Below, piece by piece: positions 16,361 through 30,570 of a stretch of DNA of 64,000 nt. This DNA is from Clostridium sp. BNL1100 (GTDB taxonomy: Bacteria; Bacillota; Clostridia; Acetivibrionales; DSM-1351): contig NC_016791.1 of the NCBI RefSeq assembly GCF_000244875.1, positions 2,547,001 through 2,611,000 of the forward strand, in the 5' to 3' direction. Position 1 is the first letter of the stretch, and every line of letters begins with the position of its first letter. Both the position numbers and the translations under genes were made by a program. The notes under the pieces were generated by a model. It did no database searches, was not told where the DNA came from, and was given only the letters and a program-made list of their open reading frames with translations.

Positions 16361-18232
16361 TTATAACGTGGTATTTTTTAACATATCTATTATATCATTT
16401 GTTACGGCGTCTGTATCTAATCTGAGTTTTTTCATTAGTTCTTCTCTTGAACCCTGAGATATAAACTGCTCCGGCAAACCTTTTATGAGTAAACGTGTTT
16501 TATAATTAAAAGTGTTAAGGGTATCAAGTACTCTGCTGCCGAATCCACCCATTACACAATTGTCTTCCATTGTTACGAGGTTTGTATATTTATCTGCACA
16601 TTCCTTAATCAATTCTACATCCAAAGGCTTAATAAACCTTGCACTGACAACTCCTGCATTAATACCTTGCTCTTTCAACTTTTCTGATACTTGTAAAGCT
16701 GTTTCAACCATACTGCCGACAGCCAGTATACACACATGCTGTCCCTCTCTTAGCACTGCTCCCTTGCCAGATACTAAAGGTATTTCCTGTTTTAGTAAAT
16801 CTTTTCCTCTGCCTCTGGGATATCTGATAGCTATAGGCCCGGTATGTTTGTTTATTGCATAATCAACCATTGCTTTTAGCTCATAATAGTCGGCAGGAGC
16901 CATTATTGTAAAATCAGGTATGTGATTTAAAAATGACAGATCAAATTCACCCTGATGAGTTTCTCCATCCTCACCTACAATCCCAGCTCTGTCCACGCCT
17001 ATAACTACATGCAGTTTCTGAAGTGCTACGTCATGTATTAACTGGTCATATGCTCTTTGTAAAAATGATGAATAAATTGCAACAACCGGTATCATACCAT
17101 TAATGGCCATTCCGGCAGCTGACGTAACTGCATGCTGTTCGGCTATACCCACGTCAAAAAACCTTTGAGGGTACTTTTCACTGAATTTGGATAACCCGGT
17201 TCCCTTTGCCATTGCTGCTGATATGGCAACCACCCTGTCATTCACTCCGGCAGCTTCTAAAACCGCTTCTCCAAAAACTTCAGAATAGTCGGGCAACTTC
17301 TTACCGTAGGTTTCTCCGGTCTCCACCTCAAAAGGTGCTATTCCATGAAATCTGTCAGGACTTTCTTCTGCATAAGAATAACCCTTTCCCTTCTGAGTAC
17401 ATACATGAATTAGAACAGGCCCTTTAATTTTTTTTGCTGCCTGTAGTGATTTATTTAACTCATCCAGACTGTGTCCATCTACAGGTCCGTAATATTTATA
17501 ACCTAACTGTTCAAAAAATACTCCCGGTGTAATGAGGTATTTCACAGTACTTTTTAATTTTCGTACAGCTTTTCTGGCTTTCTTACCAATATTCGGCATT
17601 TTGTCAAGAAAATTATCTATATCCTCCTTAGTCTTTGTGTAAACAGGGTCAGTACGCAGTTTACTTAAGTATCTTGACATTCCGCCAACATTTTGTGCTA
17701 TGGACATCTCATTGTCATTAAGTATCACAATAAAGTTACTTGTCAGTCTTCCGGCATCATTTAAGGCTTCATAGGCCATTCCGCCGGTCATTGCTCCATC
17801 ACCTATCACAGCCATTACACTGTAGTTTTCTTTCTTTATATCCCTTGCACGGGCAATACCCAGTGCTGCAGAAATTGATGTACTGCTGTGCCCTGTGTTG
17901 AAACAATCATGTACGCTTTCACAGGTTTTGGGAAATCCGGCTAAACCTCCGAATTTACGTAACGTATCAAAATCTGCTTTTCGGCCTGTCAATATTTTGT
18001 GGACATATGATTGATGTCCTACATCCCAAACAATTTTGTCCCTATTTGTATTAAAGTTATTATGAATCGCAAGTGTCAATTCAACAACACCAAGATTAGA
18101 GGCTAAATGCCCCCCGGTTTTTGAAACTTTATATATAAGAAATGTTCTGATTTCTTCTGCAAGAACCTTTAACTGTTCAATCTCCAATTTTTCTATATCT
18201 TCAGGAGAGTTTATACTATCCAAATACCCCAC
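16361..18232 (-). CDS. dxs: 1-deoxy-D-xylulose-5-phosphate synthase
   Basis: Thiamine-diphosphate enzyme that joins pyruvate and glyceraldehyde 3-phosphate, the first step of the MEP isoprenoid pathway. The ThDP-binding GDGAMTGGMAYEALNDAG and VGHQSYVHKILTGR motifs are clear, as is the transketolase-like centre with HQGEFD. 623 residues is full length. It begins 5 bases after the end of oapA and is in the same unit as ispA, so precursor and prenyl-chain synthesis are linked here around the OLE RNA. Confidence 0.97.
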   Translation of the reverse strand: MGYLDSINSPEDIEKLEIEQLKVLAEEIRTFLIYKVSKTGGHLASNLGVVELTLAIHNNFNTNRDKIVWDVGHQSYVHKILTGRKADFDTLRKFGGLAGFPKTCESVHDCFNTGHSSTSISAALGIARARDIKKENYSVMAVIGDGAMTGGMAYEALNDAGRLTSNFIVILNDNEMSIAQNVGGMSRYLSKLRTDPVYTKTKEDIDNFLDKMPNIGKKARKAVRKLKSTVKYLITPGVFFEQLGYKYYGPVDGHSLDELNKSLQAAKKIKGPVLIHVCTQKGKGYSYAEESPDRFHGIAPFEVETGETYGKKLPDYSEVFGEAVLEAAGVNDRVVAISAAMAKGTGLSKFSEKYPQRFFDVGIAEQHAVTSAAGMAINGMIPVVAIYSSFLQRAYDQLIHDVALQKLHVVIGVDRAGIVGEDGETHQGEFDLSFLNHIPDFTIMAPADYYELKAMVDYAINKHTGPIAIRYPRGRGKDLLKQEIPLVSGKGAVLREGQHVCILAVGSMVETALQVSEKLKEQGINAGVVSARFIKPLDVELIKECADKYTNLVTMEDNCVMGGFGSRVLDTLNTFNYKTRLLIKGLPEQFISQGSREELMKKLRLDTDAVTNDIIDMLKNTTL

Positions 18233-18237
18233 TTGTA

Positions 18238-18899
18238 TTACTCCTTTATAGTACCTTTGTTAGTGCATTTTTTTTTATTATTCCATTTCTTTTTCTTTTT
18301 AAAATTTAATTTTCCGAAAAGAAATTTTATAACAACTGCTACTTTATATATAATGTAATTACTATTTTGCAATGCTACGGATTTACCCAGTGCTTTTCCG
18401 CCAACAGTGAGGGATGCAACCATTGCTGTAATTGAAAGTCCAAAAATAGAATTTTGTGCATCAGTACCTCCGCCCGAAAACTTGTATACTATAAAAGCAG
18501 CCGCCGTACCACTTATTACACCGCAAATATCCCCAACGACATCGTTGCAGAAATTTGAGACCTTGTCGGCATTTCTTATTAATATAACAGCCTGTTTAGC
18601 ACCATAAAGCTTTCTTGATGCCATAGAATGAAAGGGTGCTTCATCCGCAGCTGTCGCAGCTGTACCTATCAGGTCAAATAATATACTTATGATTATTATA
18701 ACAAAAACAATAAGAAATGAAACAACTGTGGTAGCATTACCTAATGTTTCATTTGAAAAAAAAGACATAAAAATAGAAATGAAAAAAGTGATTACCGTTA
18801 TTAAAAGTGTCCAAACTCTTGTTTTTTTTTAGAGCTAATTGCATTAGCCCTGAATTTAACTTTCTTTTCATCGGCTGGATGTTTAAAATTATCTTCCAC
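18238..18899 (-). CDS. oapA: OLE-associated membrane protein OapA, out of frame at an A9 run
   Basis: DUF21-like membrane protein that in Bacillus halodurans binds OLE RNA. The part in one frame is 18238-18768, starting at an ATG with no ribosome site and cutting into a membrane segment. Upstream, GGAGG followed 6 bases later by GTG at 18899 opens a 29-codon frame (VEDNFKHPADEKKVKF...) that runs into nine A residues at 18822-18830 and stops at 18801. Adding one A joins it to KKTRVWTLLITVITFF..., which continues in frame into MSFFSNETLG. The restored protein of about 220 residues would have a charged N-terminus, helix 1 (TLLITVITFFISIF), helix 2 (VVSFLIVFVIIIIS), the AADEAPFHSMASRK loop and a Gly/Ala-rich helix (ICGVISGTAAAFIV). 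The break may be a sequencing error, a true mutation or transcriptional slippage. Confidence 0.85.
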
Positions 18900-18926
18900 A
18901 CCAATCCTCCAGATTTATTAGAAAAA

Positions 18927-19533
18927 CAGGTGGCAGTTTATTGAGTAAATTTTGCGGCTTAGGTCAGGCAGGATTTCCCTGACATGTGCTGGAATGTCGC
19001 CAAACCAGTGGTTTCCCTTTAAACACATCACCGTACGTCTCCGTTTACGGGGCCTGATTACCACTTAGTCCACACTTTAATCCCCAATAAACCACTTTTA
19101 AGAACAGTCTAGGGGTTTTCCCCAGCAGTCAAAATGATTCCTAGCCTCTTTTGCAAAAAAGGTTTCAAACAGCAATAATGCTTATATATCGGCCAATACA
19201 TGAAGCATCTGATCCGTTATTCACCGGATTTCACTCAAGGCAGGCTACACTGTTCACAGCCATCATAAAGACACCGCATAACAGGTTTAATCCCTTTTCG
19301 TAGTCGAGGTGGCAAGCAAAAGCTTGACTTTTCTTCCACAAGTAAGGGTCTCCACGGAAAAGGGGTCAACGCCCGCATGCCATTGCGGATCGCCCCTAAG
19401 CCTTAACTCCCAGCATCAACCCACCACTGGGCGTAGCAAGCCGACACAAGGAACTTCATCGATGTGCCCTTAAACGGATTTTTAGGCCCGTCTTCAGAAT
19501 CATCAGTACTGACTAGAATACTGCGCCACCCTG
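18927..19533 (-). ncRNA. ole: OLE RNA (ornate, large, extremophilic RNA)
   Basis: A 607-base gene-free, GC-richer segment with much internal pairing lies between ispA and oapA. The minus-strand ends pair: CAGGGTGGCGCAG at 19533 with CTGCCACCTG ending at 18927, forming a closing helix with small bulges. Inside are hairpins such as GATCCGCAA...TGCGGGCG and long GC-rich conserved-looking blocks without an open frame. Length (published OLE RNAs are about 600 bases), position directly upstream of a DUF21-like oapA, and the ispA-OLE-oapA-dxs-tlyA order match the known OLE loci. In B. halodurans the RNA forms a membrane-bound particle with OapA and is linked to tolerance of cold, alcohol and magnesium stress. 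The call rests on context, size and end pairing; no covariance search was run. Confidence 0.9.
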
Positions 19534-19585
19534 TTTTTTTGTCAATAGTATTAATATTAGATAACATAAATGTCATCGAGACAAC

Positions 19586-19613
19586 ATTATAACATAAAAA
19601 CTTTGATAAACAA
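19586..19613 (-). promoter_or_regulatory. Possible promoter for OLE RNA
   Basis: Minus strand: TTGTTT (19608-19613), 16 bases, TATAAT (19586-19591) preceded by TG one base upstream (extended -10). It lies in the ispA-OLE gap, about 50 bases before the RNA 5' end. Would allow OLE, oapA and dxs to be expressed apart from ispA. Confidence 0.5.
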
Positions 19614-19640
19614 AGAGAATATTATTCCCCAAAATTCATC

Positions 19641-20525
19641 TTACCGGTCCCTTACAACCAGTGATAATGCAAGTTCTTTCAAAAACTGCGCCTTATGGCC
19701 AAATGCTTCAAGGCAGGAAATACCTTCTTGAGTTACTGTTTCCAGAAGCTTTTTTGACTCTTCAAGTCCATACATGGTTACATAAGTTGATTTATTACAG
19801 GAAGAATCGTTTCCGGGATTCTTTCCCATATTTTCAACGGTTCCTTCTATGTCAAGGATATCGTCTTTTATCTGAAAAGCTAGCCCCAAATTTGCTGCAT
19901 ATCCTGACAGAAGCTCAAATTCTTTTTTATCGGCACCACATATTACTGCCGCAGCTTCCACTGGCGCTTTTATCAACGCACCTGTTTTCAGTCTGTGCAT
20001 TGTTTTAAGCCTATCACTTTCAATGGTTTTTCCTTCTGATTGAAGGTCAATTACCTGACCTCCTACCATTCCTAATGCCCCTGCTGCCTTAGCAACTATT
20101 CCGGCAGCCCGCATTTTTTCAATACTATTTGATTCAACTGTATCATTAATCATTATTTCATAAGCCATATTTAATAGTCCGTCTCCGGCCAGTATTGCCA
20201 TGGCTTCACCAAACACCTTGTGGTTTGTCGGCTTTCCCCTTCTATAGTCGTCATTATCCATAGCCGGTAAATCATCATGTATCAGTGAATATGTATGAAT
20301 CATTTCGATTGCACAGCCAAAATTAATTACCTCATTAAGCGGCTTATCTAGCATTTCTGCAACAGCTAGTGCCAATAAAGGTCTCAATCTCTTGCCTCCA
20401 GCTAAAAGACTGTATGACATTGCTTCCTTTATTTCAAGGTAGTATCCGTTTACTTCCGGAATAATATTATGAAGCCTCTCTTCAATCATATTCACATATA
20501 TATTGTTTTTTTCCTTAAAATTCAT
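19641..20525 (-). CDS. ispA: Polyprenyl (farnesyl/geranylgeranyl) diphosphate synthase
   Basis: Condenses isopentenyl diphosphate with allylic diphosphates to make C15 or C20 prenyl diphosphates. First aspartate-rich motif DDLPAMD begins at Asp84 and the second, DDILD, at 221-225; GGKRLRP (43-49) binds substrate. 294 residues fits IspA. The bulky residues before the first motif (IHTYSLIH) are like farnesyl synthases, but chain length cannot be fixed from sequence. It follows xseB by 12 bases, giving the conserved xseA-xseB-ispA order. Confidence 0.95.
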   Translation of the reverse strand: MNFKEKNNIYVNMIEERLHNIIPEVNGYYLEIKEAMSYSLLAGGKRLRPLLALAVAEMLDKPLNEVINFGCAIEMIHTYSLIHDDLPAMDNDDYRRGKPTNHKVFGEAMAILAGDGLLNMAYEIMINDTVESNSIEKMRAAGIVAKAAGALGMVGGQVIDLQSEGKTIESDRLKTMHRLKTGALIKAPVEAAAVICGADKKEFELLSGYAANLGLAFQIKDDILDIEGTVENMGKNPGNDSSCNKSTYVTMYGLEESKKLLETVTQEGISCLEAFGHKAQFLKELALSLVVRDR

Positions 20526-29745: not shown

Positions 29746-30192
29746 TTATCTCAATGAAACTTTTTTATTCATAATGCGGCCTGTAGTATAGAAGAGGACA
29801 CATACCATTATTATATCAAATGTATATCCTCCCAGACCAATAACCATATTTGAAGGATTTTGGTTGTTTATGTTATTTATTAAATATCCAACCATATTCT
29901 GTGCAGTTAAAGAAATATCAAAACCGCCGGTCAGGCTGACTGAAATTGAAAAAGGAATTATTATGGTAAGTATAGTCTCTACTATCTTTAGTGCTACATT
30001 TGTAACCAGAAACAATAGAATCGAGGCTCCTGCCGCCCCTAAATTATGAAATCTTGGACGATTTGCCAAGGTTATAGAAAAGTAAATCTGGCTCATTAAG
30101 TACAGTATTGATAAACATACCATAGGTATAATCGCATATATATAATTTCCCATACCATAGCTTTCTATTTCATCCAGAACCGACGACCACAC
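29746..30192 (-). CDS. C-terminal half of an ABC permease split by an in-frame stop
   Basis: 148 residues from a GTG, with about four hydrophobic helices (YIYAIIPMVCLSILYLMS; AAGASILLFLVTNVALKIVETILTIIIP; a C-terminal helix near 120-140). It is in the same reading frame as the upstream ORF at 30205-30570. Only a TGA codon and four sense codons (V-D-G-K) separate them. No clear ribosome site precedes the GTG. The simplest reading is that both are halves of one ABC-2-like permease of about 275 residues. It may be a broken gene, a sequencing error or a real two-part permease. Confidence 0.75.
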   Translation of the reverse strand: MWSSVLDEIESYGMGNYIYAIIPMVCLSILYLMSQIYFSITLANRPRFHNLGAAGASILLFLVTNVALKIVETILTIIIPFSISVSLTGGFDISLTAQNMVGYLINNINNQNPSNMVIGLGGYTFDIIMVCVLFYTTGRIMNKKVSLR

Positions 30193-30204
30193 CTTCCCAT
30201 CTAC

Positions 30205-30570
30205 TCAAAGTCCATACAATGCAACAAAGAAAGCTCCCATACAAATCAGTACACTCAATATCATCCAAATAAATGATACGATTGACTTCGAAACGAGGTG
30301 AAGGTGAGGTTTTAAAGGTAATGTAAAACTTAAGTATCCTTCGTTTGAGTATAAGTTTTTATAAAATCTCATACATATTACTACCAGTGTAACAATAAAT
30401 ACTGCAATTCCAACTAATAGCAGTAGCACTGAAGATGTTACCTTGAACCAACCCAACTCCAGTTTTCCGGCAAGCAAGGACAAACCTGCCAGAACTGCTG
30501 TTATTACATAAAAGAAAGGTATTATTCTTGATGTATCCTTAACCTCATATTTGAATAATTTCCCTAACAT
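30205..30570 (-). CDS. N-terminal half of an ABC permease split by an in-frame stop
   Basis: 121 residues starting MLGKLFKYE, with helices at about 18-35, 45-67 and 95-118 and the conserved YSNEGYLSFTLPLKP loop of clostridial ABC-2 permeases of this type. It overlaps the ATPase gene by 7 bases, so it is translated with it. The frame ends at TGA (30205-30207) right after ALYGL, where related proteins would be expected to go on into an extracellular loop and further helices. Confidence 0.8.
   Translation of the reverse strand: MLGKLFKYEVKDTSRIIPFFYVITAVLAGLSLLAGKLELGWFKVTSSVLLLLVGIAVFIVTLVVICMRFYKNLYSNEGYLSFTLPLKPHLHLVSKSIVSFIWMILSVLICMGAFFVALYGL

Follow-up and report, generated by a model that had tools for sequence, protein, structure and literature searches.

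The locus analyzed here raises the question of what becomes of an RNA–protein pair when the RNA is complete and the gene of its partner can no longer be read in one frame. The pair is OLE, a large bacterial RNA, and the membrane protein OapA, described as almost completely mutually inclusive (PMC11332333). In H. halodurans, OLE is part of a membrane ribonucleoprotein (RNP) with OapA, OapB, OapC and bS21, with roles under cold, alcohol, Mg2+ and carbon-source stress (PMC12265935; PMC9723947; PMC12054373; PMC10898510), and OapA is required for its function (PMC12265935). We have studied a stretch of 64,000 nucleotides from Clostridium sp. BNL1100 (the window), in which an earlier reading of the sequence alone had proposed a complete OLE RNA with an oapA partner among isoprenoid genes.

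A complete OLE RNA between ispA and oapA

The sequence-only reading had suggested the Rfam OLE covariance model as a check, and the match was full-length: cmscan aligned the whole of RF01071 (positions 1–616) to the minus strand with 542.6 bits (E 2.4e-156), the gathering score being 50 bits. No other Rfam family was above threshold in the 64-kb window. The elements of the region are the following:

16361–18232, minus strand: dxs (TIGR00204, 819.4 bits)
18914–19545, minus strand: OLE RNA in the extent of the RF01071 match (1–616), without a second copy in the 4,613,747-base genome (one contig)
18927–19533, minus strand: 607-nt OLE RNA bounded by its pairing ends (terminal duplex of −17.6 kcal/mol)
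19641–20525, minus strand: ispA, farnesyl diphosphate synthase (NF045485, 357.7 bits)

The ends 18927 and 19533 had been proposed from their pairing and were well chosen. The 607-nt RNA starts with CAGGGTGGCGCAG and ends with AACTGCCACCTG, and its length, its closing 5′–3′ pairing and its position directly upstream of oapA (frame-broken though that gene is, see below) are those of the class of ca. 600 nt. With 18 nt taken from one end and 40 nt from the other, six of 2000 sequences with a shuffled 3′ side formed a duplex as stable. A set of 103 distinct OLE loci (46 of 149 were left out as duplicates or because an end motif was not found) gave a mean of −17.8 for a locus's own ends vs. −12.5 for ends swapped between loci and −8.9 for shuffled ones, as expected of a covarying helix. 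The G+C content of the RNA is 47.1% against 36.6% for the window, and no other 607-nt segment (step 50) along the 64 kb was as rich, in agreement with the G+C-richer gap noticed before. The claim that the gap is structured stands by the covariance-model match, which carries the case; the thermodynamic fold (−206.4 kcal/mol, z −2.51, one of 20 shuffles as good) is by itself weak evidence. A consensus scan of 1 kb gave four promoter-like sites (shuffle mean 2.1) and two terminator-like sites (shuffle mean 0.9), and these were not used to assign OLE a promoter or terminator of its own.

Compared with full-length OLE RNAs the window has all 616 model positions, the terminal pairing and oapA downstream. 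The model match also takes in the region of the kink-turn to which OapC binds. Candidate dimer-contact features were also recognized in the alignment, an A-run in L4 (CCUAAAAAUCCG) and a palindrome UUGGCC in L9.3; the L4 A-run and the L9.3 GGCC belong to bridges B1 and B3 in the cryo-EM structure of the C. acetobutylicum OLE RNA, which is a dimer (PMC12286853). A difference was found in P6: at its bS21 site H. halodurans OLE has an anti-Shine-Dalgarno mimic, CCUCCU (PMC12054373), which is absent from the corresponding strand of the window (19356–19402, minus strand). CCUCC within 8 nt after GACCC was seen in only one of 85 parsed distinct OLE loci and in none of 21 from Bacilli (count over loci L001–L201; 27 distinct loci unparsed, 13 without the 5′ motif), and in one of the unparsed loci, L199, CCUCC lies a few bases further on. 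The feature is an ordinary, complete OLE RNA, one more sequence in a large and well-described class. The expectation that it could refine the model is weak, since the published model was already built on 1,517 unique representatives (PMC12054373).

Gene neighborhood and distribution

On the minus strand the gene order is nusB, xseA, xseB, ispA, OLE, oapA, dxs, tlyA, nadK, argR and recN. The names dxs, ispA and tlyA come from NCBIfam matches, while nusB, xseA, xseB, nadK, argR and recN are what we take these genes to be from their translations; the status of xseA, xseB and nusB as OLE-typical neighbors is here presumed on the same basis. An Asp23-family gene is found further upstream and, like dxs and ispA, is a neighbor shared with known OLE loci. 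The order ispA–OLE–oapA–dxs is kept in 11 of 11 genomes of the genus. The isoprenoid setting read from the letters was thus confirmed by the family matches of dxs and farnesyl diphosphate synthase and by this conserved order. In published OLE loci oapA is the commonest downstream neighbor and isoprenoid genes are among those nearby (PMC12265935), and the window fits them in both respects.

Within the genus, all 11 genomes searched have an OLE match; at the level of the order it was found in 53 of 58, and among 391 genomes drawn from the class 151 have one. The genus relatives include Ruminiclostridium hungatei, R. cellobioparum, R. sufflavum and R. papyrosolvens, and the closest oapA is that of R. 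papyrosolvens C7 (L005, identical to L132). None of four order genomes without an OLE match (83–100% complete; a fifth, 55% complete, was left out) gave an OapA match. A search for papers joining Ruminiclostridium with OLE RNA found none, nor any treating OLE RNA together with a frameshift, most subscription papers lying outside its reach.

Several unusual OLE matches were seen in other genomes. In a relative, a metagenome-assembled genome titled Eubacterium sp. (G008; L011, 1501–2049, on the same contig as L122), the OLE 3′ end is replaced by ca. 100 nt that the model does not accommodate, and two middle stems are shortened, with a single-frame oapA adjoining, the reverse of the window's case; this could be due to assembly or contamination, the genome being 92% complete and 6% contaminated. 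The class search gave a match of 845 nt (G370:C27:123875–124719), three matches within one genome, the best of them partial (G416:C8:170–483), and a weak match in G412 (E 2.7e-72). An exact 16-base OLE motif occurs in seven IMG/VR stretches, yet Rfam OLE was recovered in 0 of the 7, so that these motif matches look like chance and a viral OLE was discarded.

The reading frame of oapA is broken at a run of nine A

The 741-base gap of the earlier reading is exactly 18900–19640, bounded by GTG 18899 behind GGAGG, and hence the start of oapA had been set at that GTG. The interval is free of listed ORFs of at least 60 aa, as had been said; the frame that bounds it, however, ends at codon 33. The parts of oapA are as follows:

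18906–18910, minus strand: GGAGG, likely ribosome-binding site of oapA, just past the OLE 3′ end (in 11 of 11 genus loci)
18801–18899, minus strand: 5′ part of oapA, a frame of 32 codons from GTG and a stop, with the conserved N-terminus (VEDNFKHPADEKKVKF...) up to the A9 run (translation; OapA profile columns 1–26, E 2e-10)
18822–18830, minus strand: A9 run (sense strand), site of the frame break, an interrupted run in the 10 other genus loci
18238–18825, minus strand: main part of oapA, in another frame (OapA profile columns 25–219, E 4e-120)

The frame from GTG 18899 reads VEDNFKHPADEKKVKFRANAISSKKK..., residues that by profile and alignment are the conserved OapA N-terminus, and both parts match OapA relatives at the E-values listed. 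No single continuous OapA frame with its N-terminal helix could be found, the break being located at 18822–18830. The oapA partner proposed from the letters is present as a gene, but one whose frame breaks close to the 5′ end and cannot be read through normally. In this the locus differs from known OLE loci. The main part fits the OapA profile and encodes a CNNM-like membrane protein, with a Pfam CNNM score of 23.2 bits, under the cut-off of 28.4.

The main frame is open back to 18825 without a start codon, and its first listed start is ATG 18768, leaving 176 aa. In an AlphaFold2 model of an intact relative's OapA (mean pLDDT 76.8, residues 1–22 below 50) this ATG corresponds to residue 46, inside the predicted first helix (23–55), and no ribosome-binding site was seen by eye before it. 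Among solved folds the nearest to this predicted structure is MtCorB, a CNNM protein of archaea (7m1t; Foldseek E 0.01, TM 0.42, probability 1.00; no match was as good as E 0.001). This likeness fits the published link of OapA to MpfA (PMC11332333).

We followed the frame through 68 distinct OLE genomes, two of which were dropped because the contig ended before oapA. Among the remaining 66 only the window's genome has a split oapA and the other 65 have it in a single frame. In a second, overlapping set, the best 80 of 294 OapA loci, so that weaker relatives are not seen, oapA was in one frame at 80 of 80 named loci. A match that begins at profile column 20 or later would hide a break upstream of it, and this applies to four of the 65 genomes and to 40 of the 80 loci, which leaves 61 genomes and 40 loci for a sound comparison. 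Together the two sets comprise 149 loci, 146 with a recognized core (121 distinct cores); the exceptions are L051, L058 and L071, the first two lacking an OapA match since the contig ends. At the 10 other genus loci OapA is single-frame in every case. Being present in a single genome, the break does not qualify as a conserved recoding site.

Selection on oapA and quality of the genome

Over 160 codons the oapA main part differs from that of the closest relative by three nonsynonymous and 13 synonymous substitutions (dN/dS 0.067), and pairs of intact relatives gave values between 0.023 and 0.066. The main part is thus under normal, undiminished purifying selection, and the break must be recent, compensated or an error.

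The assembly is a single contig, 99.99% complete. A comparison with the relative G006 along the surrounding 400 kb paired 276 of its 350 genes with a homologue (identity of at least 60%) in the window's genome, and these gave two frame-shift candidates, oapA and a low-complexity ORF of 90 codons, and five in-frame stops. In the opposite direction (279 of 345 genes) there were two frame-shift candidates and three in-frame stops. Broken frames are therefore rare in this region and the window's genome is about as clean as that of G006. The homologue-based comparison replaced a stop-to-stop comparison of the same 400 kb, which was swamped by antisense ORFs and leaders. In the window, at 29746–30570 on the minus strand, two adjacent ORFs of 121 and 148 aa correspond to one 274-codon ORF of G006 and are parted by an in-frame stop; the gene beside them we take, from its translation, to be an ABC-type ATPase.

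Partner proteins elsewhere in the genome

The other proteins of the complex have counterparts elsewhere in the genome. A 93-aa OapB-like protein matches PDB 7k9b, “OLE-associated protein B” (E 2.3e-9), and its gene sits between one that we take to be map and infA, the latter identified by TIGR00008. An 80-aa protein of the L7Ae family resembles YbxF/OapC (E 7.1e-14 to YbxF) and is encoded between genes that we likewise take to be rpoC and rpsL. The bS21 gene is present, and the 16S rRNA 3′ end is of the ordinary type at six places. Besides OapA the genome has a CNNM-domain protein in an open frame of 457 codons (G000:C1:292501–293091, 176.7 bits), although MpfA and OLE are said to anticorrelate.

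Runs of nine A and slippage

Frame-shifted genes with an A9 have been named “pseudo pseudogenes” (PMC1088944), and oapA has the same makeup in sequence: its two frames join at an unbroken stretch of nine A, and its homologues in other genomes are in a single frame. The difference is that the run of its relatives is interrupted rather than a plain run of eight. Thermus thermophilus dnaX has such an A9, and 50% of its product is shortened; nine is also the run length at which a large share of the genomes studied show evident selection against slippage (PMC1088944). Transcriptional insertions in E. coli grow exponentially with run length up to 9; the same transcriptome-wide study detected no restored frame, which counts against rescue by slippage (PMC5574713).

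Near the start of oapA long runs of A are no rarity. Among 118 distinct 260-nt stretches before the conserved ADEAPFHSMA codons (a count that includes stretches upstream of oapA), three have a run of nine A and nine a run of eight. The window's oapA has a second A9, at 18268–18276 on the minus strand, in frame within the basic and poorly conserved C-terminal tail, and this run is also A9 in three close relatives (L002, L004 and L005). Such runs can thus be neutral, and A9 alone is no mark of recoding.

Possible explanations of the break

One alternative would be that the gap is a regulatory leader of oapA–dxs, or a plain spacer, with no RNA gene at all. Its position directly before oapA would suit this, but the full-length covariance-model match and OLE standing before oapA in 11 of 11 genus genomes leave it virtually no chance, and the plain spacer is ruled out by the full RF01071 match. 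More probable is a real loss: the isolate would have recently lost OapA, for example in laboratory culture, and the OLE RNA would be idle or near decay. A culture would tolerate it, because in H. halodurans the OLE RNP can be deleted with no detectable growth defect under optimal conditions (PMC12265935), and the frame remaining from ATG 18768 would lack the conserved N-terminus, start within the first predicted helix and have no ribosome-binding site that the eye can find. The intact OLE sequence and the unrelaxed selection on oapA speak against it, and an OLE without OapA would be unusual given that the two are almost completely mutually inclusive (PMC11332333). We consider such a loss unlikely.

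The same low dN/dS that fits a very recent loss also fits an oapA that is in truth intact and was wrongly sequenced or assembled. Single-base runs are classic sites of sequencing error, and the break is found in no other locus examined. An error is less easily reconciled with a one-contig assembly that is 99.99% complete and has only two frame-shift candidates in 400 kb (276 of 350 G006 genes with a homologue), and the interrupted run of the relatives means that the difference is more than a miscount within one run. We regard this explanation, too, as improbable. The likeliest explanation, to which we give about an even chance, is the remaining one, namely that the OLE RNA is ordinary and that the frame shift in oapA is a recent mutation which would have created a slippage-prone A9 and still allow some full-length OapA to be made.

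On this reading the sequence of events could be as follows. OLE would probably be produced within the transcript of the ispA–OLE–oapA–dxs cluster, fold into the known structure and dimerize. It would supply the RNA of a membrane complex that also contains OapA, OapB, OapC and bS21 and that helps the cell through stress. The recent mutation would have made the A-run of oapA uninterrupted and prone to slippage, and slippage of RNA polymerase or of the ribosome at the A9 would give a fraction of full-length OapA, as in a pseudo pseudogene. The sequence itself shows what the RNA is, that it is complete and present once, how its ends pair, the order of the genes, the broken frame with its rarity in the sample, and the undiminished selection on the main part of oapA. 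The membrane RNP, the dimer, the protein partners and the stress phenotypes are known from work on other species, and the transcription unit, the slippage, the residual OapA and the function in this organism are inferred.

Meaning for the OLE complex

The RNA itself adds one sequence to a known class, and it is the oapA variant that is of moderate interest and worth following. The point of interest is the partner: a complete OLE RNA stands beside an oapA that cannot be read normally, despite the near mutual inclusivity of the two (PMC11332333). The case bears on the persistence of OLE without OapA, on whether a little OapA is sufficient, or on a wrong record. More tentatively, and on balance doubtfully, the dose of OapA, and hence the number of working membrane OLE complexes, may be set in this strain by slippage at the A9 or by reversible changes in its length. 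If true, this would be a leaky or phase-variable OLE RNP with the RNA intact and the membrane partner limiting, a natural experiment.
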